From Pseudobdellovibrionaceae bacterium (GTDB lineage Bacteria; Bdellovibrionota; Bdellovibrionia; Bdellovibrionales; Bdellovibrionaceae), in contig JABWCN010000009.1 in assembly GCA_013359135.1 (NCBI GenBank), forward strand, positions 1 to 64,000: a stretch of 64,000 nt of DNA, given 5' to 3'. Positions 4,547-27,632 of the stretch are shown here, piece after piece (position 1 is the first letter of the stretch; each line of letters opens with the position of its first letter). Under the pieces are notes generated by a model that made no database searches, was not told the DNA's origin, and saw only the letters and a list, made by a program, of their open reading frames with translations. Position numbers and translations under genes: made by a program.

Positions 4547-5263
4547 TTAAAACTTAGCAACTAAGGCTGTTGTAAATGTTGTATCTTCTTTTTTTTCAGA
4601 GTCAGTTTTTGTTTTGTTATGATATTTAACTAAATAAGAAACCTTCAAAGACAAAATTTGATTCATCATAACATTGATAGAAGGCTCATAGTTTAATAAG
4701 TAATCATCAGATTCACTGCTTTTCAAATTTGGAAGATACTCAAGCCAGATCTTTCCTGTTACTGACTCATTCAGTTTTACTCCATACTCTAAATAGACAC
4801 GTGCAGAATTTGAAAAACTAACATCTCCAGCAACGAATTGTGTCTTAGTATAACGATAACCTAACTCACCAAAAAAATTCCTATCAGCTTCTTTTAAAAA
4901 AAAGTACTTTCCACCCATGTCAGTATTATCTCTTTGAACATATCCTGCAAAAGTATCGTTTTCAGCACCATGCTGTAAAAAAACTCCCCATTTTTCCCCT
5001 AGCTCTTTTTCATATCTCAAAGAGGCATCCCATTGTTTTGCTGTTTCAAGTTGATTTGCTTTAGCCTGCAAGTACCTAGCTGAACCGGTCAAAACATGAG
5101 TTTCAATTTTGTAGCTAGTTTTTTGCTTTGCGCTATAGCTTTCTGATGTTGTATTACCACCGACTTGTACTACCGAAGCTTCTGATTCATGCTTCCAAGA
5201 ACTGTCTTCGGCTGCAAATGCAGTTATTCCGAGCAGAATAACTAAAAAAAATATCTTCTTCAT
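4547..5263 (-). CDS. DUF481-family outer-membrane protein
   Basis: 238 residues with a signal peptide (MKKIFFLVILLGITAFA then AEDSSW). The mature part alternates beta strands typical of the DUF481/YdiY family: SSWKHESEASVVQVGGNTTS at the start, YEKELGEKWGVFLQHGAEND, an LGYRYTKTQF strand, and an aromatic C-terminus ending VAKF suited to BAM insertion. The family is predicted to form an outer-membrane beta-barrel; YdiY of E. coli responds to acid and salt stress. Start supported by gaaagg upstream. Transcribed before mscL. Confidence 0.85.
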   Translation of the reverse strand: MKKIFFLVILLGITAFAAEDSSWKHESEASVVQVGGNTTSESYSAKQKTSYKIETHVLTGSARYLQAKANQLETAKQWDASLRYEKELGEKWGVFLQHGAENDTFAGYVQRDNTDMGGKYFFLKEADRNFFGELGYRYTKTQFVAGDVSFSNSARVYLEYGVKLNESVTGKIWLEYLPNLKSSESDDYLLNYEPSINVMMNQILSLKVSYLVKYHNKTKTDSEKKEDTTFTTALVAKF

Positions 5264-5586
5264 AAAAAACCTTTCTTGTTTTCATTTTGTTTATGGAAAA
5301 TGCTTGATTGTTAAATTACAGTCAAATCAATAAATTAAATTAGGATTTGTTGCCGTTTTGTCCTGAAGAGTCAAAGGGGTTTTATCTTTTAAAATTTGAA
5401 TGACCTCCACCCTCAAAATCAACAATTAAAAAAGACAAGCCAACCATTTCTGGCTACGAAGGTCTGAAGTTTTATATTATGCATTGAGGTTGGCTCAAAA
5501 ACTATAAAGACACTTTAGTTAGTTTCTGACTCCTGAAAATAAAAAAAATAAAGTCATTAATGTGATTTCTTCAATACCTTAAGTAC
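5264..5586. other. Gene-free interval between lipB and the DUF481 gene
   Basis: 323 AT-rich bases. It holds the probable lipB terminator (5428-5495) and must contain the promoter of the DUF481-mscL unit. No -35/-10 pair is convincing enough to mark. No frame of useful length and no RNA gene was seen. Confidence 0.4.
5428..5495 (-). terminator. Probable terminator of the guaA-lipB run
   Basis: On the minus strand AGCCAACC (5495-5488) can pair with GGTTGGCT (5445-5438), followed by TGTC and a six-T run. A shorter alternative stem, AGCCA/TGGCT, lies nearer the T-run. It is about 90 bases beyond the lipB stop. The long loop of the outer pairing makes this moderate. Confidence 0.45.
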
Positions 5587-6249
5587 TCAAGAAACCTGCA
5601 TCTTAAAGATTTCTATCCACTCATTAAAAAGTAAATTTAGAGAATCGTCTTGATTTAACTTTTGGTGATTTTCTATTTTGTCGTGGTGTTGACACTTAAT
5701 TCCACAAGAAAGGATATGATCAAATAGCCCTAAATCATTACTCACGTTAATAGAAATTCCGTGCCTCACCACACCATGATCTACCTTTAGACCAACAAAC
5801 GCAATTTTTCCATGATCTGTGTATAACCCTGGTTTTTCTTGATCGTAGTGGTTAACAACTCCTTGGCGTGTCAATAACTCAGAAGTACAACTAAAAAGTA
5901 AATCAATAAAATTCTTAATTCCTAAATGACGATACTTCAAATCTACCATAGGATAAATAACCAATTGTCCAGGTGAGTGAACTGTTGCAAGTCCTCCACG
6001 ATCTGTAGTTTCAATAGTCAATCCCTCTGACTCCACGTCCTTAGAGCTTAATAAAATAAGATCGTGACTTTGTTGAGCAGCTCTATGACCTAAAGTAATG
6101 ACAGGAAGAAACTCCATACCTAAAATAAATATTTTATCAGTCCCAGAAACTTCAGCGACAAGGCGTCTTTGTTGCTGATCAATTTCTTTAAAAGATTTTA
6201 AACCAAGAAAGTTCTGGTGAAAGTTTTTCCCTAAAGCAAACGACTTCAT
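5587..6249 (-). CDS. lipB: Octanoyl-(ACP):protein N-octanoyltransferase LipB
   Basis: 220 residues from the ATG at 6249, directly after the upstream stop (TAACATG). An earlier ATG at 6273 would overlap the upstream gene by 23 bases. LipB moves octanoate from acyl carrier protein to lipoyl domains; LipA then inserts sulfur. Family motifs in order (numbered from 6249): RGG at 84-86, HSPGQLVIYP at 91-100, GKIA with Lys148, HG at 163-164, and LSCGI with catalytic Cys182. The usual YHGPGQ is VHSPGQ here, a mild variation. Last gene of a minus-strand run that starts at guaA. Confidence 0.92.
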   Translation of the reverse strand: MKSFALGKNFHQNFLGLKSFKEIDQQQRRLVAEVSGTDKIFILGMEFLPVITLGHRAAQQSHDLILLSSKDVESEGLTIETTDRGGLATVHSPGQLVIYPMVDLKYRHLGIKNFIDLLFSCTSELLTRQGVVNHYDQEKPGLYTDHGKIAFVGLKVDHGVVRHGISINVSNDLGLFDHILSCGIKCQHHDKIENHQKLNQDDSLNLLFNEWIEIFKMQVS

Positions 6250-6250
6250 G

Positions 6251-7171
6251 TTAGTACAACTCAACTCTATCATTTTCTCTAAATCCGGCCCCGGAGTGAA
6301 TGACTGCTATTGCGCCATCTTGACCAAAAAAACTAACAACCTCTAGAGTTCCCTTGAGTCTTCCTGGACTTTTCCCGATAAAATTTCCAGTTTCAGTGTC
6401 ATAGATTTCTTCGCCTTCATCAACTACACGAAGTAAGTCACCTACATTTAACCCAGAAATTTTCCCCACATTTAAAAATAATCGTTCACCCTGAACGGAA
6501 GCAATACGCCCTTCCCATGATACAGTCTCTAAAGACTTTACTATTTGAGGGACAAACTCATAAAGAGTGTCTTTAATTAATGTTCCCACAAGTTTTGAAG
6601 GATTATCTACTTCCTCAGCTAAACTACCCTCTTGATCCTTGTAGGTTACCGTCTTCATTGTGTTGTAAAGCTCTTTGCCTGACTGATTTACAACCTTAAC
6701 CACCACAGAACATTCATACTCAGTCTTAACCGTCTTTAAAAGACCTTTTTGAGGAATTGATTTTCTAATTTTTAAATCATAAACTTGAGCCTCAAGACCA
6801 CTATGTACCGAGAACTCTTTCAACGTCTTTTGTATGTCTTTAAAGTCATAATTGCCTTGGATAGTAATTTTAGGAATAGATATCTTCAAATCTTCACTAT
6901 CAAAAGCAATGACCTCGTCATTACGATTAAGCTCTTTAAGAAAACCTTTTTTTATGGCTTTCGACAAATCCTCTGGAAGAACTTTCTTAGGATCAAGAAT
7001 TGGCAACACCATCAATCTTTTTTTAATCATCTGATGATCTGGATTCTTACTCAGAGGAATATCTTTAACCATTCTTACTGGTGATGAATTTGAATGCTTC
7101 ATTTGCGTGGTACAAGAAAGCAAACCTATCACTAATAAAGAACATACAAAAATAATTATTTTTTTCATCAT
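6251..7171 (-). CDS. Lipoprotein with FlgT-like middle and C-terminal domains
   Basis: 306 residues. Lipobox LLSC at 17-20 predicts a diacylated Cys20. Residues about 50-215 resemble a TolB-like fold (KKRLMVLPILDPKK..., amphipathic helix, beta strands). The last ~85 residues match the FlgT C-terminal domain: RLFLNVGKISGLNVGDLLRV and YDTETGNFIGK, an SH3-like barrel. FlgT of Vibrio is a periplasmic protein that builds the H-ring around the flagellar basal body. The neighbouring upstream gene encodes an exported protein with a FlgT-N-like start, so the two may form a split FlgT. An alternative is a general LPP20/CsgG-like envelope lipoprotein. The domain match is by eye. Confidence 0.6.
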   Translation of the reverse strand: MMKKIIIFVCSLLVIGLLSCTTQMKHSNSSPVRMVKDIPLSKNPDHQMIKKRLMVLPILDPKKVLPEDLSKAIKKGFLKELNRNDEVIAFDSEDLKISIPKITIQGNYDFKDIQKTLKEFSVHSGLEAQVYDLKIRKSIPQKGLLKTVKTEYECSVVVKVVNQSGKELYNTMKTVTYKDQEGSLAEEVDNPSKLVGTLIKDTLYEFVPQIVKSLETVSWEGRIASVQGERLFLNVGKISGLNVGDLLRVVDEGEEIYDTETGNFIGKSPGRLKGTLEVVSFFGQDGAIAVIHSGAGFRENDRVELY

Positions 7172-19455: not shown

Positions 19456-20034
19456 ATGACTCCCAGACGCCCAGATTCAAAGAAATGGACCCATTTCCCC
19501 TCTGATCTTCTTATGCAAATTGAAGAGGCAACTCAGGAGTTCTTCGCAGAAGAGTTTAAGAAACAACTCACTGAAACTCAATTTATCGTAGAGGGACAGA
19601 TTTTTCCACAAGAAGTCCTTCTTCGCTTAGGATTAAGTCAAAAAAATACTCTTAAACAACCTAATTTTGAAATTTCTTTTGATATTGGAGACAATAAAGA
19701 CGAGGTATGGCAACGACTTAGAATCGCTTTAGACTTTCTACAGGGAGTTATGGTTGACTACCTATCAGGAAAAACAGCTAGCTCTGAAGAGGAGTCTACA
19801 GAGTTAGAACTACCTCTTTCTTGGAAAAAAGTGAATTTTAAGAATGACACTTTCTTTTTTCAATACTCCACTACGAACTCAAAACTTGAAGCCTTGGCCG
19901 ACCAACTTCTTGGCATCAACGAAAAAAGTCTGGTCGGTGAAAATGACTCGATCGAAGACGATGCCTTTGAACTTGCCGATATTGAATCCGAGGAAGTTTT
20001 AGCTCATCTTAAAGACAAAAATCATTTGCACTAA
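19456..20034 (+). CDS. Conserved-looking hypothetical protein
   Basis: 192 residues from the second of two adjacent ATGs (19453, 19456), placed 6 bases after GAGG. A longer frame from 19360 lacks a ribosome site. Content: MTPRRPDSKKWTHFPSDLL, an EEATQEFFAEEFKKQL helix, VEGQIFPQEVLLRLGL, a central region LPLSWKKVNFKNDTFFFQYSTTN and an acidic tail (EDDAFELADIESEEVL). Soluble and cytoplasmic; no known motif. It diverges from miaB and shares its 130-base promoter interval. Confidence 0.6.
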   Translation: MTPRRPDSKKWTHFPSDLLMQIEEATQEFFAEEFKKQLTETQFIVEGQIFPQEVLLRLGLSQKNTLKQPNFEISFDIGDNKDEVWQRLRIALDFLQGVMVDYLSGKTASSEEESTELELPLSWKKVNFKNDTFFFQYSTTNSKLEALADQLLGINEKSLVGENDSIEDDAFELADIESEEVLAHLKDKNHLH

Positions 20035-20109
20035 AAATCAACTCCACAGACATACTAGAAGTATTAGCAACTGTTACTGAAGAATGATTTCCTTTTTATC
20101 GCAACAGAA

Positions 20110-21015
20110 TTAATTAGATATTTGTTTCAATATCCAAGATTTAAAAGTTTGAGCTTTAACCACTGAACTTGCACTTTTACAAGTCCCTTTACTATCAGAG
20201 TTTTTGTTCAAAACAACCACTCCCTGATTTATCCCAACTAAATAATACTTACCCTGATAAAGATAAACAGCAGGACCGCCAGAATCTCCTGAGCAAATAC
20301 CTTTACCATTTTTTTGATCCAGCAAAAAATTAGTCCCCTCATCGCTTTGGATAGGGATATTTTCAGCTTTTGCTAAGGTACTTGATGAGCTAATCCCATA
20401 ATCAACTTTACTTCCATAGCCCAAAACGGTCAATTGATCCCCTTCTTTGAGCTCAATAGAATAGGGTAAAAATTCTATTGGCAAAGCTGTACTTGGAATT
20501 TTTTCAAACAACTCTAAAACTGCTAAATCAAAAAATCGCAAGCGATAGAAACTATAGTTTGGATGAACACTAACACTCTTTGCAAAAATCTTATTTGTCT
20601 TGCTACTAGCTTCTGTCACATTTGAATTATTAAAATACACTTCAGCAGCTAAAATTTCTTTTGCTTTAGCTCCCTCTGCAACTGTTGAATTGGTGTTACC
20701 CGTTTTTATTTCACCTGGTTCTTCTCTGTAAACACAATGACCCGCCGTAAGAATATGATACTCATCTATTATAATTCCAGTGCAAAGATAAAAATTATCT
20801 GGCTTAGGATCTCCTATTTTTTTTAGAGAATAAACATGAATTTTTACTACAAACTTACTGATCGAATCCATTGTAGCTACTTCACTACCACCAATGATTC
20901 CATACTGATCCTCTAAAATATTTAACCCATCACGATCATGACTACTTTTACAAGAGAGCAAGCCCCCTCCCATAATAAGATAAATAGTAAATAACAAAAC
21001 TAATACTCTTCCCAC
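20110..21015 (-). CDS. Trypsin-like serine protease lipoprotein (S1)
   Basis: 301 residues from a GTG start. Lipobox LLSC with Cys22 makes it a lipoprotein. A short propeptide is followed by IIGGSE (40-45), the zymogen cleavage site. Catalytic triad: His93 in LTAGHC, Asp163 in FFDLAVLEL and Ser245 in GDSGGP. Cysteine pairs C78/C94 and C241/C282 fit trypsin-type disulfides. It would act in the periplasm or at the outer-membrane surface, degrading protein; such proteases are numerous in predatory bacteria, though that role is inference. The 322 bases upstream hold its promoter. Confidence 0.9.
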   Translation of the reverse strand: MGRVLVLLFTIYLIMGGGLLSCKSSHDRDGLNILEDQYGIIGGSEVATMDSISKFVVKIHVYSLKKIGDPKPDNFYLCTGIIIDEYHILTAGHCVYREEPGEIKTGNTNSTVAEGAKAKEILAAEVYFNNSNVTEASSKTNKIFAKSVSVHPNYSFYRLRFFDLAVLELFEKIPSTALPIEFLPYSIELKEGDQLTVLGYGSKVDYGISSSSTLAKAENIPIQSDEGTNFLLDQKNGKGICSGDSGGPAVYLYQGKYYLVGINQGVVVLNKNSDSKGTCKSASSVVKAQTFKSWILKQISN

Positions 21016-21337
21016 GAAACCCCCGAAACCCCATAGAACAATAAAAACACAGATAGCACTGATGCAGAAAAAAAATCAACAAAAGCTTAACATTTTTTAC
21101 TCTTGCGTATTTGCAATATAGAGACCTCTCCAAATCAAACCTGATCGAAATGTTAACGGCTTAACTGACAAATAAAAAAACAAAAAAGAAAAAAATTCAA
21201 AACTTAAAAAAAAATAAATTATTAAATTACAGTGTCCTTAATTTCGCAAAATCTATTCAGAATTTTTTTCTTTTTCAGATTATAGCAGTAGCTCTCATCT
21301 TTATTTCACTCATTTTTTATCATGATGATATCACTCA
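21016..21337. other. AT-rich gene-free interval
   Basis: 322 bases between the S1 protease start and the end of the next minus-strand gene, very rich in A-runs. It should hold the protease promoter and the terminator of the gene at 21338-22621, but no perfect hairpin plus T-run was found. A palindrome-like tcatgatgatatcatcat stretch (about 21320) is weak. Confidence 0.35.
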
Positions 21338-22621
21338 CTACCAACGCAACAAATCACTATCACTATGTTCATTTCTATTTTTTTCTTGTCTCAATGATCG
21401 AATTTTATCCCTGATTTCAATCTGATATCGTGGATTTTCTTCAAGAACTTTATAAATAGAAACCAATAAACTCTCAATAATTTCCCCATGCATAAAGGTA
21501 GGCTTAATCACTTGCGGATTTTGTAAAAATTTTCGATATGCTGATTGAAAACCATTCAAGGATTGTAATTCGTAACCCCCACCCGTAGCTTTAACAATGT
21601 CAGACATCCTGTCAAAATTAGTTTTTGAATAGCTCCCTAAAACTTCAGAGTTATTCATAAAAAACACAGGAACACCAGCGGTAGTTGGCTCAACGATATT
21701 ATTAGGGCCGCTAACATAAGCTGCATTTGCTACATTTAAAATACTTGGCATGACTCCCTCCATATCATTCAATACAATGAATTTTTGCCCTGCAACGTAT
21801 TGTTCTGCCCACTTCGATATTGAAATTACTTTATAATCTTTTAATCGTTCATCGGCAGGTTTTTTAAACGATAAATAATTTCCACCCCCCTCTGAAATAA
21901 AAAACAATGCTGGTGGTTCTTCTGAAACTCGATCTATTGCTGTCAAAATTTCTTGAATTACCATAGCTGCAGTGGGAGCCTTTAGCGATGGTTTTTCTGG
22001 AGATTTATTATAAATACTAAAAACCGTATCGTTGCTAGGAATACCCAATCTTTTTCGAAACCAACTCCGCGGAACTCTTGTGACTCCAGGATTTGCCAAT
22101 TTAATTTTTGACATGTCAATATTTAAAGAAGTGGGTTCAAAAACATTATTAGTAGTATCAGACAAAGAAATTGCAAATCTTTTTTTCTGTGAATACGCCA
22201 TCTCAAATGCATTCAAAACCTGATTTTGCTGCCAATAATTTTGCGAAGTGATATCGAAGTATTTCTCGGCAATTGTAACTTTCGGATACAGAGTTTTAAG
22301 TATTTGAGCAATATATTGAGCTGCGATGTGTCTGCCTAGAGAATACATTCCTGAAGAGATATCAGAAATAGTGATCACTGCGTCCTCTCCCTCACCAAGC
22401 CCCAGCGGCTCAAATAGTTTTTTGTATTCTAAAATAACTTTTTTTAATTCTTCAGGCATCTCAATCCTAGTGGCTTTAGGAAGAGACTCAAATCCTCTAT
22501 GAATGGTGTCGATATAGTAACTAGAACATTTCCTTTTCATATGATCCAGAGACATGGCAATTGAAATTTCTAAATGAACAAAGATACTAACAAAAAGTAT
22601 TAACTTAGCTGTCAATTTCAT
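21338..22621 (-). CDS. Exported GT-B-like protein resembling WaaA C-terminal half
   Basis: 427 residues from the ATG at 22621, which gives a clean signal peptide (MKLTAKLILFVSIFV...ISIA). The frame is open further upstream to a TTG at 22669. Residues about 302-321, AAYVSGPNNIVEPTTAGVPVFF, followed by KTNFDRMSDIVKATGGGYEL, closely resemble the donor-site segment of Kdo transferase WaaA and other GT-B enzymes (GGHN..EP...G.PV..GP..NF). Upstream, ALFFISEGGGNYL and KVISISKWAEQY fit a Rossmann half. Enzymes of this type use cytosolic nucleotide sugars, so an apparently exported form is odd. It could be membrane-anchored with a cytosolic domain, or the family reading may be wrong. Divergent from the IucA/IucC-like gene. 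Confidence 0.45.
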   Translation of the reverse strand: MKLTAKLILFVSIFVHLEISIAMSLDHMKRKCSSYYIDTIHRGFESLPKATRIEMPEELKKVILEYKKLFEPLGLGEGEDAVITISDISSGMYSLGRHIAAQYIAQILKTLYPKVTIAEKYFDITSQNYWQQNQVLNAFEMAYSQKKRFAISLSDTTNNVFEPTSLNIDMSKIKLANPGVTRVPRSWFRKRLGIPSNDTVFSIYNKSPEKPSLKAPTAAMVIQEILTAIDRVSEEPPALFFISEGGGNYLSFKKPADERLKDYKVISISKWAEQYVAGQKFIVLNDMEGVMPSILNVANAAYVSGPNNIVEPTTAGVPVFFMNNSEVLGSYSKTNFDRMSDIVKATGGGYELQSLNGFQSAYRKFLQNPQVIKPTFMHGEIIESLLVSIYKVLEENPRYQIEIRDKIRSLRQEKNRNEHSDSDLLRW

Positions 22622-22669
22622 AAAGATAATCATAAGCAACAAGCATACCATCCTAATTGAAATGAACAA

Positions 22670-22690
22670 AATGTTTCAAAATGAAACATT
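22670..22690. promoter_or_regulatory. Palindromic candidate operator between divergent genes
   Basis: AATGTTTC (22670-22677) and GAAACATT (22683-22690), perfect 8-bp arms around AAAAT. It lies in the 144-base interval between the GT-B-like gene and the IucA/IucC-like gene, about 50 bases from the first start and 76 from the second, where a shared operator would be expected. No T-run, so not a terminator. Confidence 0.45.
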
Positions 22691-22765
22691 ACTAGAAATA
22701 GCTATACACAATCTATCATTACAGCCACAAATGGTTTAGTTTTTGCAAATTACCTAAAGTAAGTT

Positions 22766-24397
22766 ATGAGCAAAAAATTATTAATATTCTTTTTAATACT
22801 TAACTCCATTGAGCTTCCTGCTACTGAAATTACAGAACAAGTTCTTGATCGCTTGTATTTAAGCAGTTTTTTCAATGTGAGTTTGAGAAGATCTGATGGA
22901 GAAAACGTTTTACCTAGCAACAAAAAAGCTTTACCAATTTCTATCTATGAATTCCAAGTTCCAACTCAGTATGTAACCTCTTTATCTGAAACAAAAATAA
23001 ATGGTGATTATATCACTCTTGAAATTCCTGAAAACCATCCTTCTTTTAAAGCACTCAATGCGCGCTTTAAAATGACTCCAATTGCTAGCTCCTACCGCGT
23101 TCTTTCAAGATCAACCGTTTTAGTTGATACAAAAAATCCTTACTATCTCAAACCCAGAATGAAAAAAGAAGAATTAGAAAGAGGCATTGAGATCTCAGAA
23201 TACATAAAAAAGACGGCGCCTGTGGACTCTAGATATTTACACCAATTAGATGAGTACGAAGGTTACTCTCTAGTTCTAGAGGGTATAGAGTATAGCTATA
23301 CAAAAAGAAGATTCCTACCTCAAAGTTTTAAATTAAAAGCAAATCAAAAAGTAATTCCGTTAACAGCTTTATTCGGGAACTCAGACTCGCAAGAAAGTAT
23401 CCATGGCATGAGGGGCGAAACTCTTGCAAAAAAATATGCTCGCATCGCAGGAATGTCCTATAAAGAATGGCTTATCAATGAATACAGTTCTAAATTTGGT
23501 CACTACGTGGGGGAATTCACCTCCCTACTTGGAATAATGCCACTTTCTCACATGCAAAACACATTTGCCGTCTTAAATGAATCCACAGGAAAAATTGAAA
23601 CTTTTTTTTCTCAAGATTTGGGGGATTCACTTGTTTTCACCTTTATACCTGACTCCTTACAAAAAACACAAAAACCTTTTTTAAGTCCATTACTAAGAAA
23701 AACAGATCATCGCCTCTATTCAAAATATAAAGGTGAGATGACTGGTATTAGCCAACCAGAAAATTTCTTTTTATATAACATTTTTCAATCAATTAGATTT
23801 CTTTTTGAAGAACTTTCAACTAAAGAATACAACTTCATGATTCAGTCATTGGGCTTTTATATGGAAGCGTATTTATCTGAAGTTTTTAAACACCTTCATG
23901 TGAATCAAAATGCAGAACACTGGAAAAAAGTTAAAGACCTAATTGCAGTCATGAAAGAAGGACAAAGTGAAACCTTTAGCTATATGAAAAAAACTTATGG
24001 CTACGTTAACATCTCTGTGGAATTAATCAACAACGACCTCATATCTTCTATATTTGAAAATCTATTTTTGGAAATTAGAAACAATTTTACCACCAACATA
24101 AACACAGACCTAACTTATCAGATGAAAATGCTTCAAAGATGGATTGATAACGAAAAATCAAACAATCTAAGTTTTGCTAATTCCATGGCCCCAAAAATTA
24201 ACTTTTCTAATTACAGTTATTTTCCAAGTGAATATTTATTCCATGAAACAAAAATTGGCCTACTCTTGCTAAAAAGAGCTGTCTTACACACTCAAGATCC
24301 TCCTACACTAGCTGCAATTATGCACATCCCACCCACTAATAAATGCCACCAACACTATTTATCTCCGTGGGTAACGAAAATAATTTGGGATTATTAA
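22766..24397 (+). CDS. Exported protein with IucA/IucC-like motifs
   Basis: 543 residues with a signal peptide (MSKKLLIFFLILNSIELPAT). Two segments resemble NIS siderophore synthetases of the IucA/IucC family: FKMTPIASSYRVLSRSTV at 101-118 (family: KL.L...ITSA.R.L) and GIMPLSHMQNTFAVL at 256-270 followed by QDLGD at 283-287 (family: G...EAH.QN......RD..G). The Arg of the usual RD motif is Gln here. Synthetases need cytosolic ATP, so a signal peptide is at odds with activity. It may be a repurposed or inactive homologue, or an unrelated fold. The C-terminal 200 residues are helical without known motifs. Confidence 0.45.
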   Translation: MSKKLLIFFLILNSIELPATEITEQVLDRLYLSSFFNVSLRRSDGENVLPSNKKALPISIYEFQVPTQYVTSLSETKINGDYITLEIPENHPSFKALNARFKMTPIASSYRVLSRSTVLVDTKNPYYLKPRMKKEELERGIEISEYIKKTAPVDSRYLHQLDEYEGYSLVLEGIEYSYTKRRFLPQSFKLKANQKVIPLTALFGNSDSQESIHGMRGETLAKKYARIAGMSYKEWLINEYSSKFGHYVGEFTSLLGIMPLSHMQNTFAVLNESTGKIETFFSQDLGDSLVFTFIPDSLQKTQKPFLSPLLRKTDHRLYSKYKGEMTGISQPENFFLYNIFQSIRFLFEELSTKEYNFMIQSLGFYMEAYLSEVFKHLHVNQNAEHWKKVKDLIAVMKEGQSETFSYMKKTYGYVNISVELINNDLISSIFENLFLEIRNNFTTNINTDLTYQMKMLQRWIDNEKSNNLSFANSMAPKINFSNYSYFPSEYLFHETKIGLLLLKRAVLHTQDPPTLAAIMHIPPTNKCHQHYLSPWVTKIIWDY

Positions 24398-24483
24398 GCC
24401 TATGTCCTATTTTATTTTTTAAAAGACAAACCTAGACTTAGCTCAGATTGAATAAAATTTGTTTAACTTTTACTATAGAATTC

Positions 24484-25134
24484 ATGAGAAAAAACCAAAA
24501 TATTTCCCTAATCTGTGTTACTTTTTTCTTAGTTCTTTTTATTAGTGAAAAAACATTATGCAAAGGACAACAGACATCTTTAATCTCTATCCCCGTAAGA
24601 CTCAATGTTTTTGCTGGCTACTTAAATGGATCCTCTTCTTTTAATTTAGATAAAAAAAATATTTCTAATAATGGCTTTCTAGGAGGGATTGATTTCAATG
24701 TTCCCATCCCTGCTATAAATACTCTTATTGGTGGTAATATGTGGTTTCTACCCGCAGCTAAATCAGATGATATCAATTCCAAACTTCTCTTTATTGGTCC
24801 TTACCTTGGTTACTCTAAGGGAAAAAATGATCTTTTTATAGGTCTTGGTGTTGCCGTCACGGAATCCACACTAAAGGAAACTGCAGCTGCCCCAAACACA
24901 GAAATCAGTTTGAGCAAAAATATAGGTTGCGGATTCCTCGGATGGCGAAACTACTTTGGTAAAAGCCAAACCATGGGCGTTGGTCTAACAGGCTATGCCT
25001 GCCAAGCAAGTGATTACTCAAAAGTCGTCGACTCTCAAACAGCAGCCAAAATTACCGTCGCTGACAAGGCTTCTTTAAATGGTGCTTTATTATTTCTTTT
25101 CTTCTCATGGGGAGAGGAAAGGACTTTAATATAA
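24484..25134 (+). CDS. Predicted outer-membrane beta-barrel protein
   Basis: 216 residues from the ATG at 24484, which gives a normal signal peptide (MRKNQNISLICVTFFLVLF...). The longer frame starts with TTG at 24448. The mature part is Gly- and aromatic-rich with alternating strands: VRLNVFAGYLNGSSSF, NGFLGGIDFNVP, LLFIGPYLGYSKG, DLFIGLGVAV, and MGVGLTGYAC. This fits an eight-strand barrel, although it ends GEERTLI rather than in an aromatic residue. Two cysteines (GCGFLG, GYACQA) may pair. Function unknown. The stop lies 14 bases from the convergent papain-like gene. Confidence 0.6.
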   Translation: MRKNQNISLICVTFFLVLFISEKTLCKGQQTSLISIPVRLNVFAGYLNGSSSFNLDKKNISNNGFLGGIDFNVPIPAINTLIGGNMWFLPAAKSDDINSKLLFIGPYLGYSKGKNDLFIGLGVAVTESTLKETAAAPNTEISLSKNIGCGFLGWRNYFGKSQTMGVGLTGYACQASDYSKVVDSQTAAKITVADKASLNGALLFLFFSWGEERTLI

Positions 25135-25148
25135 ATCAAAATACAATC

Positions 25149-26348
25149 TTAACGAGTTTTGACCGAAATTAGTACAACATGATTGGATAAATCAGAGAGC
25201 CAGTTATACTCTCTAAGAATAATTCTTTTGGCGTAATGTGTGTAGGACCCCGGGTTCTTAAGATCGTATTTATAAATCTCTTCACTTGCATCAGGATACT
25301 GGGAATCTCTAACATAGAACATTCCCTTAGCTCTACATCCACCATTACGTTGATGAACCTTTTCCAACTTTTTCTCATTGTTAACAAGTTCCGTATATTT
25401 CTTTTTAAGCTCCTGAAGAAGCTGATCGTCACTAGCTCTGGATATCTCTGCTTGAGTTCTACTTCTTTCAGAAGCAAAGTACTCTTTGGTTTCTCGGATA
25501 AAATAACAGTTATAGGTTGGTAGCTCATCGTCATATCCAACTATAAAAACGGAATGCCAATAACCCAAATGATTGTAGACAACTTGAATAGGTGCTTTGT
25601 AGGTCTGCAACAAAGACTTCACCTTGTCCACAGCTGCAAAGGTAAGACCGCCAAATTGCCACGGGTTTTGATCAGGATCCTTATAAATAACGGTTCTTTC
25701 AAATTTAGGTAAACTCATGGTTTTAGGCTTAAACAAGTCAATTTCATCAATCCAATTGTAAAGGGTACCATAATTAGCACCACCCTCATTAGGTTTAGCT
25801 TTAACTGTTTTTCCCCAAGAAGTCTTTGACCACCCCTTTGTGTAACGATAATCAACATTCAAAACAGCTGGTGATTGATTAAATAGATAAATAGTATCTG
25901 TAATCCAATTATCAATAGCTACACGACTTCTTTTAAAGCGATCATTAACATTTACCCACCAACGTTCACTCAAATCCGTTGGACCATCCTGTACAAATTT
26001 AACATTACTAAGTTTTGCTAACCACCACTCAACAATACCTGTTAAGGACATAAATAGACAAGTACCTGCATCCTCCTGATCTGGTGAGGGACTAACAAAA
26101 GGAACAAGTTCATTGAACCCTCGAAGGTCAGCAGGATCTTGAGGCGCTGGAGCACCTTGATCGCGGAAGGGTTTGTATACTTCTCGACGAAGTGATCTGT
26201 ATAACTGAAGACGTTTTTGTTCAGCAGCTTCTGACAATAAGTACTGATTTTGACTCTTAGGAAGGACTTTAGCTGGCAATGTAAATGTTTGTGCTTGCAG
26301 CTTAAGAAAAAATAAAATTAAGATAAAAGAGATCATTAATTTTTTCAT
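25149..26348 (-). CDS. Exported papain-like (C1-fold) protein
   Basis: 399 residues with a signal peptide (MKKLMISFILILFFLKLQAQ). DQEDAGTCLFMSLTGIVEWW (90-109) parallels the papain nucleophile helix DQG.CGSCWAF, with Cys97. YWHSVFIVGYDDE at 263-275 supplies His265. The third catalytic position, usually Asn in NSWG, reads VRDSQYP (Asp348), and the first Cys of CGSC is Gly or Thr. The long charged insert ~290-335 is unusual. It may be an active peptidase with an Asp in the triad, or a degenerate one. Substrate would be periplasmic or external protein. Divergent from the MFS gene. Confidence 0.65.
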   Translation of the reverse strand: MKKLMISFILILFFLKLQAQTFTLPAKVLPKSQNQYLLSEAAEQKRLQLYRSLRREVYKPFRDQGAPAPQDPADLRGFNELVPFVSPSPDQEDAGTCLFMSLTGIVEWWLAKLSNVKFVQDGPTDLSERWWVNVNDRFKRSRVAIDNWITDTIYLFNQSPAVLNVDYRYTKGWSKTSWGKTVKAKPNEGGANYGTLYNWIDEIDLFKPKTMSLPKFERTVIYKDPDQNPWQFGGLTFAAVDKVKSLLQTYKAPIQVVYNHLGYWHSVFIVGYDDELPTYNCYFIRETKEYFASERSRTQAEISRASDDQLLQELKKKYTELVNNEKKLEKVHQRNGGCRAKGMFYVRDSQYPDASEEIYKYDLKNPGSYTHYAKRIILREYNWLSDLSNHVVLISVKTR

Positions 26349-26429
26349 AGACTAAAATCTAGGTGCGAAAAAAGAATTTGTCTAGAACAAAAATACTAGA
26401 AAACAAAATTAAAACAATGAGTGAATTTT

Positions 26430-27632
26430 ATGCAAGCAAGAATGTTATTTATATTAATTACCCTCTCTCTGGACATGATTGGCATTGGTATCATTATCCC
26501 CTCCCTGCCAGACATTTTAAAAAAATTCATTGCTGATCCTGAGCTTGCCACTCAAAGTTTTGGTTATTTTATTTCAATCTATGCCATCATGCAGTTTCTA
26601 GCCTCACCTTTACTGGGTGCCATTTCAGACTGGAAAGGACGAAGACCTGTTTTACTTGTTTCACTGTTGATGGCTGGAATTGATTACCTGGTTATGGCTT
26701 TTGCTCCTAATCTCACAATTCTTTTTGCGGGCAGAGTGTTAGCTGGCCTCACCGGAGCTAATTTCACCGTAGCCATGGCCTATATTTCTGATGTGAGTAA
26801 CGACGAGAATCGTGCAAAAAATTTTGGCTTATCGGGTGCCGCTTTTGGACTTGGTTTTATAATCGGCCCAGCTATCGGTGGTTGGCTAGGGGGAATAGAC
26901 CCTCATTATCCTTTCCTGGTAGCCGCCGTGATGAACTTACTTAATTTTGCTTTTGGTCTTTTTATTTTACCCGAATCACTTCCCAAAGAAAAAAGAAGGG
27001 TCTTTACAAAAAACCAAATTAATCCCTTTAAATCATTAGGAAAGCTCTTAGGAAATAAAGAACTCCTAGTCTTTTTTCTAATTCACTTCTGCTTGCAATT
27101 GGCAGGACAAACTCACCCCTCTATCTGGAGTCTCTACACCCACAGCCGTTTCGAGTGGAGCCCCTCCCAAATTGGTGCCTCTCTAGCTGTTGTTGGAATT
27201 ATGTCTGCACTCACTCAAGGTTTTTTAACCCCTAAGATTATTGCATTTCTCGGCGAGAAAAAAACTGTAGTTTTTGGAGCCCTTGGAAATAGTTTTGGTT
27301 TTTTGTTTTTTGGTTTAGCAAATCAAGGGTGGATGATTTATCTATTATTAATTATTACTTCTATTTTTTGGACCGCAGGGCCTGCACTTCAATCACTGAT
27401 TTCTAAACAGGTCCCACCAAGTGAACAAGGTGAACTACAAGGATCATTATTTAGCCTCACAAGTCTTGCTAGTATTTTATGCCCGGTAATTAGCACTCAA
27501 GCTTTTGCTTACTTTAGTCACCAAAATACTCTAGGAATAAAGTTGCCAGGAGCTCCCTATTTTTTTGCATTTATTGTGGCTTTTACAGCCTTCACCCTTG
27601 CAGTGAAAGCTAAAGAAAAACAAAGCTTATAA
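26430..27632 (+). CDS. Tet(A)-type MFS exporter
   Basis: 400 residues from the ATG at 26430; a GTG 9 bases earlier is also in frame. Twelve hydrophobic spans. The first span carries [18 protein letters not shown], typical of the TCR/TetA group (DHA1). The loop 2-3 signature [14 protein letters not shown] follows, then [19 protein letters not shown] and the span-5 motif [12 protein letters not shown]. Such proton antiporters export tetracyclines or other small molecules; the substrate cannot be read from sequence. No TetR-type regulator gene adjoins it, unlike classical tet loci, so a general efflux role is likely. Confidence 0.85.

Follow-up and report, generated by a model that had tools for sequence, protein, structure and literature searches.

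NIS (nonribosomal peptide synthetase-independent siderophore) synthetases of the IucA/IucC kind are known as cytosolic, ATP-dependent enzymes of siderophore formation. An exported lineage of such proteins raises two questions: where does the ATP come from, and what is ligated? These questions are posed by two divergent genes in a 64,000-nucleotide stretch of a Pseudobdellovibrionaceae genome (GenBank assembly GCA_013359135.1, contig JABWCN010000009.1, positions 1 to 64,000 of the forward strand), here called the window. P0001 (21338..22621, minus strand) encodes 427 amino acids, and P0002 (22766..24397, plus strand) encodes 543. The initial annotation took them for an exported pair, one WaaA-like and the other IucA/IucC-like, transcribed apart from one operator. 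Profiles and a structural model indicate that P0002 has the NIS-synthetase fold and belongs to a widespread branch of that superfamily in the Bdellovibrionota, a phylum noted for bacteria that prey on other bacteria; the members of this branch are predicted to be exported.

The fold of P0002 is considered first. An AlphaFold2 model was built from a 6-row alignment (mean predicted local distance difference test score [pLDDT] 48, predicted template-modelling score 0.52, core blocks up to 91 in pLDDT) and compared with the PDB by VIA-align. Rows 1 to 22 of the 50 in the resulting list are all NIS synthetases, with Z from 13.3 to 11.0. The best match is AcsD with ATP (2w02; Z 13.3 over 243 residues, 4.1 Å). 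The first non-NIS fold is the kinase-like PRPK at Z 10.2, and kinase-like folds follow from there onward. A Foldseek search with the same model placed AsbB at the top (E 1.5e-4).

The relatives of P0002 fall into three types, as follows. Type C comprises the P0002-like proteins of ~540–670 residues, type B very conserved proteins of ~430–490 residues, and type T proteins of ~390–490 residues with an intact site. In hhalign comparisons, type C matches canonical IucA/IucC proteins at 94.6% probability (E 7e-8), type T at 98.6%, and type B at 98.9%; type T matches the canonical set at 97.6%. The canonical set, here and in the tree described below, consists of 12 of the 23 canonical loci (L055–L077), all from Bdellovibrionota. 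Decoy comparisons of the three types with WaaA or with the P0001 family all stayed below 1%. A chain of BLAST matches leads to the canonical proteins in steps: P0002 to L006 (1e-8), T-type L080 to C-type L020 (6e-6), and T-type L027 to canonical L057 (5e-9). When 24 family members were compared with Pfam at E up to 1, FhuF was touched by 18 and IucA_IucC by 3, the best values being 2.2e-8 and 2.1e-11, respectively. The cut-off of PF04183 (IucA_IucC) is passed by other exported members, unlike P0002, the sequence of which has no match to this Pfam family and none in NCBIfam. The IucA/IucC likeness first noticed in P0002 is borne out by the 22 leading structural matches, the profile comparison, and the BLAST chain.

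How widespread is the branch? Searched against 58 other genomes, the single P0002 sequence found relatives in 2 of them, and a three-member P0002 profile had matches in 41 of 290 Bdellovibrionota genomes. The strongly conserved B type has matches in 59 of the 290 at E 1e-10. Named records with P0002-type relatives belong to Bdellovibrionales, Bdellovibrionia, and Bacteriovoracaceae. A second exported IucA/IucC-like protein of 672 residues, with the motifs SSPHSQN ... IRDLPD, is encoded elsewhere in the window's genome (L140:1443-3458, plus strand, contig G000:C43); a PF04183 search of that genome returned no match. A plasmid search with a B-type protein had no match, and scans of viral contigs gave no relatives.

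Export was judged by a hydropathy rule of our own, that is, a best 11-residue mean of at least 1.55 in the N-terminal segment. By this rule, a hydrophobic N-terminal segment is present in 8/8 C-type, 12/13 B-type, and 5/5 T-type proteins, as against 0/12 canonical IucA/IucC proteins (highest value 1.39). The B-type exception is L040, the start of which is ambiguous, as is that of L009. In most members the segment has an A-x-A-like end. The signal-peptide-like start of P0002 (residues 1–19, MSKKLLIFFLILNSIELPA, 22766..22822, plus strand) scores 2.73, and that of P0001 (residues 1–22, MKLTAKLILFVSIFVHLEISIA, 22556..22621, minus strand) scores 2.76, so that the signal peptides originally ascribed to both proteins are confirmed as signal-peptide-like starts. 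The open reading frame (ORF) list begins P0001 at TTG 22669; ATG 22621 was taken as the start because it gives the better signal-peptide layout.

In a tree of 37 proteins, for which 8 of the 13 B-type sequences in the profile comparison were used, a single branch with support 100/99 divides the 25 exported from the 12 canonical proteins. The P0002 branch is long (2.83), and several other rows are long too. A single origin of the exported proteins is possible on this tree, with the limits that its canonical rows are all from one phylum and that several branches are long.

The next question is whether the nucleotide site survives. Residues were numbered after AcsD by way of the PDB alignment. 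P0002 HMQN (residues 262–265, 23549..23560, plus strand) corresponds to AcsD H444-x-Q446-N447, and D284 (23615..23617, plus strand) corresponds to AcsD D464; both are conserved among relatives. In a 24-row alignment of distant exported members, from which the fragments L016, L017, L022, and L024 were omitted, the H-x-Q-N and D pocket positions are kept in all or nearly all rows. The T type goes further. Equivalents of AcsD S279, R281, T282, K293, R305, E442, H444, Q446, N447, R463, D464, and G467 are invariant in 5/5 proteins; the T type thus keeps every mapped AcsD position, i.e., S-x-R-T, K, R, E-x-H-x-Q-N, and R-D. P0002 retains H262, Q264, N265, and D284, as well as a Lys in the aligned position. 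Where S-P-R-T stands in the T type, P0002 reads S-R-S-T; it also has Gln for R463 just before D284, and a residue other than Glu at the E442 position. In PMC3323832, R305 of AcsD is assigned to adenylate formation and E442 to acceptor binding. P0002 has no counterpart of either, and therefore its chemistry has probably changed, or it is a pseudo-enzyme that binds a nucleotide or another ligand. On the substrate side, all that the T type retains of the HPWQ-type motif is HP; the B type has NPED, and nothing of the kind is recognised in P0002-type proteins. It follows that the carboxylate used by the exported proteins, if they are enzymes, is probably not the usual citrate.

P0001 belongs to a different and smaller family, found by profile search in 10 of the 290 genomes. 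In hhalign, the C-terminal part of this family matches WaaA at 81.5% probability with 8 members and at 76.6% with 11 (the same 8 plus three G266 proteins); decoys stayed below 0.5%. The segment VSGPNNIVEP of P0001 (residues 303–312, 21686..21715, minus strand) aligns to the WaaA C-terminal motif. A PDB profile search with P0001 reached WaaA only at E 0.67, so that the WaaA likeness is of moderate strength. In a low-threshold alignment, the family's GE...ILK..P segment falls under the GE motif of WaaA, the Glu of which we take to be catalytic in WaaA-like proteins. Seven of the 11 members have GE and three have GG, while P0001 has GR, in the segment SLGR (residues 94–97, 22331..22342, minus strand). 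P0001 lacks the motif Glu and, like P0002, is probably altered. Five P0001-family members were compared with Glycos_transf_N (PF04413), and none of the five matched at E values up to 1. The C-terminal domain of P0001 is probably a WaaA-like glycosyltransferase-B (GT-B) domain. The original WaaA-like assignment stands for the C-terminal half, at the moderate strength of the profile match. The idea that P0001 is the WaaA of the cell was rejected, as a canonical WaaA is found in 29/29 relatives, including the window's genome (a PF04413 gene on contig G000:C24).

In known WaaA proteins, the catalytic domain lies in the cytosol and is preceded by a membrane helix at the N-terminus. By analogy, the N-terminal segments of P0001 and P0002 could be membrane anchors holding two ordinary cytosolic enzymes. 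We consider this very unlikely. In addition to the A-x-A-like ends, a Cys stands just after the signal peptide in 9 of 11 P0001-family members, some relatives (L153, L033, and L036) look lipoprotein-like by eye, and the canonical IucA/IucC proteins have no such segment.

We suggest, at roughly even chances, the following reading: P0002 is a diverged member of the exported NIS branch, P0001 is an unrelated exported WaaA-like GT-B protein, and the exported NIS-like proteins act with prey nucleotides. A protein that is exported and has a nucleotide pocket must obtain nucleotide from somewhere, possibly from the prey; action on molecules of the prey or bdelloplast is favoured for this reason. Several points weigh against the proposal. 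The P0002 model is mostly of low confidence, and P0002 alone reaches only 18.5 bits with FhuF, under the Pfam cut-off of 25.2. In P0001, the link to WaaA spans ~82–84 C-terminal columns, and the single-sequence AlphaFold2 model has a pLDDT of 33.6. AcsD R305 lies opposite a gap in the P0002-type proteins, which counts against the known catalytic mechanism, and ATP is scarce in the periplasm.

Another explanation is that P0002, and P0001 with it, are periplasmic or surface pseudo-enzymes whose folds only bind a ligand (a carboxylate, a siderophore, or a glycan) or a partner, without nucleotide chemistry. The missing R305 and E442 counterparts, the Gln that replaces Arg ahead of D284, the absent motif Glu of P0001, and the long P0002 branch all speak for such proteins. 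However, the H-x-Q-N and D positions persist across the distant exported members, and the T type keeps a whole mapped site that would be needless in a mere binding scaffold. We regard the pseudo-enzyme explanation as possible, with the balance of evidence leaning away from it. Most likely, the two proteins were acquired independently of each other and are exported enzymes or pseudo-enzymes with a putative action on the prey or the envelope.

Do the two genes belong together? Both reading frames are intact and divergently oriented, and between them lies a perfect 21 bp palindrome, AATGTTTCAAAATGAAACATT (22670-22690, no strand assigned). To this extent, the layout proposed at the outset, two divergent exported genes around a palindrome, is correct. 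The palindrome had been described as 8+5+8; it is real and perfect, and its layout also fits 9+3+9, that is, AATGTTTCA-AAA-TGAAACATT. In dinucleotide shuffles of the 144 bp gap, perfect 8-base arms separated by 0–12 bases arose in 90 of 2000, and in 11 of 2000 when the separation was exactly 5; mononucleotide shuffles of the intergenic gap gave 9-base arms in 275 of 20,000. The genome holds no other perfect copy. Sites with at most 2 mismatches occur at 8 places, compared with 5 for a reversed control, and an operator regulon is without support. Thus, the palindrome, a putative operator, is mildly unusual, and the genome gives no sign of a regulon. A promoter scan found 2 sites, versus 1.5 in shuffles.

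Co-occurrence was examined over the same 290 genomes. The list of P0001-family genomes (10/290) and that of P0002 relatives (41/290) overlap in a single genome, G000, the window's own; when the B-type list is set against the P0001 list, G191 is also in both, with the genes on different contigs. The flanks of some relatives of each family hold no member of the other, i.e., the neighbourhoods are separate. A conserved P0001–P0002 pair is therefore rejected, and with it the exported pair of the initial annotation. A functional pair under a regulator at the common palindrome thus seems quite unlikely to us. The divergent genes and the perfect palindrome speak for such a pair, as does a distant protein, L153, in which an IucA/IucC domain is fused to a possibly GT-B domain at the N-terminus. 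Set against these are the 1/290 co-occurrence, the finding of such palindromes in ~1.4–4.5% of shuffled gaps, the lack of a regulon in the genome, and a probability of only 10.8% between the L153 N-terminal family and the P0001 family. Most likely, P0001 and P0002 are chance neighbours within a stretch of exported proteins.

The L153 protein (L153:2694-5771, minus strand) has 1026 residues and is lipoprotein-like; its IucA/IucC domain, of the T type (PF04183, E 1e-7), comes after the possible GT-B domain. Its N-terminal domain was considered as a P0001 homologue and not accepted, the profile probability being 1.2% alone and rising to the above 10.8% with four relatives. An exported protein in the window's genome (L165:940-2721, minus strand, contig G000:C40) is related to this N-terminal domain (E 1.5e-10). 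Two more proteins (L167:121-2550, minus strand; L168:100-2607, plus strand) carry an L153-type domain and a C-terminal part with 'SIDDD' or 'SVDDD' that looks glycosyltransferase-A-like by eye; Pfam gave no convincing match for that part.

The neighbours of the relatives are as follows. Of 17 genomes with the B-type gene, 12 have a class-I glutamine-amidotransferase-like gene, so read from its sequence, next to it, including all 10 examined of genus g6, and 2 have a Pfam TGase_elicitor (transglutaminase-elicitor) gene there. At two near-identical loci among the five named C-type ones, the adjoining gene encodes an exported Gln_deamidase_2-like protein, below cut-off. The TGase_elicitor and Gln_deamidase_2-like neighbours, as exported enzymes of the protein-glutamine type, count in favour of the main reading. 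The idea that P0002 and the B-type genes go back to one ancestral locus was considered and found too weak, with miaB near the B-type gene in 1/14 regions and a DEAD-box gene in 1/14. Directly downstream of two P0002-type genes is a conserved signal-peptide protein (L106:7000-10044 and L108:6990-8234, both plus strand), which in L106 carries ankyrin repeats and an FGE-sulfatase domain. The P0002-type gene of L108 lies in two overlapping frames (5223-6032 and 6019-6990, plus strand), a fragment or a frameshift. Fusions were also seen. In L141 (764-3625, plus strand), which is broken between two frames, an IucA/IucC domain follows a long N-terminal part that is papain/NlpC-P60-like by eye. In L152 (2-3772, minus strand), a 1257-residue ORF has an N-terminal B-type domain and a C-terminal part with a weak match to Amidoligase_2 (E 0.014).

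A Cys with a few partly hydrophobic residues behind it forms the C-terminus of many exported IucA-like proteins, and also of two transglutaminases and one GT-B-like candidate that are exported (L027, L034, L080, L106, L107, L140, L165, L171, L181, and P0002 itself at 24335-24397). Examples are SCQAVFR, SCSRTLLAI, SCNKIFQ, and KCIGFYKN. A pattern composed after the tails had been seen fits 15 of 21 exported IucA-like ORFs. Among the remaining ORFs it fits 5 of 107 that have a signal peptide and 10 of 247 in which none was detected; 6 of these last 10 are IucA-like genes or fragments that had escaped the filter. A general sorting tail for exported proteins is rejected, as the pattern marks the exported IucA-like family and a few neighbours. 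Within that family, the Cys-containing tail is a possible sorting signal.

In the window, P0001 and P0002 are flanked by further genes for exported proteins: a trypsin-like protease (20110-21015) and two signal-peptide proteins (24448-26348). One of the latter (25149-26348, minus strand) has 399 residues, no Pfam match, and, by eye, papain-like Cys and His motifs. No siderophore genes were seen among the window neighbours when the ORF lists were read by eye, and no RNA families were found within 20000-26500.

How might the exported NIS-like proteins work? They would be exported from the predator's cytosol and would encounter nucleotides in the prey or bdelloplast alone; there, ATP would bind in the conserved pocket. 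The T type, with its intact site, would produce an acyl-adenylate and then join it to an amine or alcohol on a molecule of the prey, much as the cytosolic NIS synthetases do, and P0002 would have an altered or binding role. Taken further, the NIS fold may have been turned into delivered effectors in the Bdellovibrionota, the T and B types drawing on the ATP of the prey to attach small carboxylates or amines to its molecules and the P0002 type being altered. They would operate alongside exported transglutaminases, protein-glutaminase-like proteins, and exported GT-B proteins like P0001, the Cys tail that many share perhaps serving as a sorting signal. We offer this extended scheme tentatively, and as a whole it is rather doubtful.

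Secreted predator enzymes acting in prey have precedent, e.g., two nucleases (PMC7925074). In the main text of a Bdellovibrio predation proteome (PMC12546842), a word search found none of the words IucA, FhuF, and siderophore. As to the view that the locus has no described counterpart, no description of exported IucA/IucC-like proteins was found in the open-licence literature; this part stands for the IucA/IucC-like protein, the pair itself not being conserved. If active inside prey, the branch would amount to a class of enzymes that are directed at prey and ligate acyl groups, testable in cultured predatory Bdellovibrionota. Annotators should be cautious with the label 'siderophore biosynthesis protein', which may be wrong for exported NIS-like genes.

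Four known systems invite comparison. SidJ, the kinase-like glutamylase effector of Legionella, appears in the P0002 structural list as a kinase-like fold (Z 9.1). It is also a delivered protein and a loose functional parallel, and its chemistry is reportedly of the adenylate type. However, SidJ has no sequence kinship to P0002, and the two are alike at the level of a general kinase-like fold, with a score well under that of the NIS synthetases. The Pfam model of the ferric iron reductase FhuF (PF06276), which most family members touch, covers the same H-x-Q-N domain. P0002 differs in scoring under the cut-off and in that the C-terminal Cys cluster of FhuF, required for its iron–sulphur reductase function, is not seen.

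The P0001 family resembles WaaA, the 3-deoxy-D-manno-octulosonic acid (Kdo) transferase of family GT30 with a GT-B fold, in that its C-terminal 'NDt.G.MP...SD..VV.GP.N..EP..AG.P' aligns with 'vDqvGil..LY..AD.AFVGGS...HSVMEPLA.G.P', and most members share the GE...ILK..P motif. It differs in its signal peptide with an A-x-A-like end followed by Cys, in the lack of a Glycos_transf_N match, and, in P0001, in GR for GE. In contrast to the NIS synthetases AcsD, IucA, AsbB, DesD, and AlcC, the exported proteins have a signal peptide, and the canonical N-terminal part is largely replaced; P0002 further lacks the R305/E442 counterparts, as well as siderophore genes among its neighbours. What P0002 shares with them is the palm fold and the H-x-Q-N ... 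D nucleotide site. The NIS-synthetase superfamily itself was already known; what appears to be new is an exported branch of the siderophore-synthetase fold.

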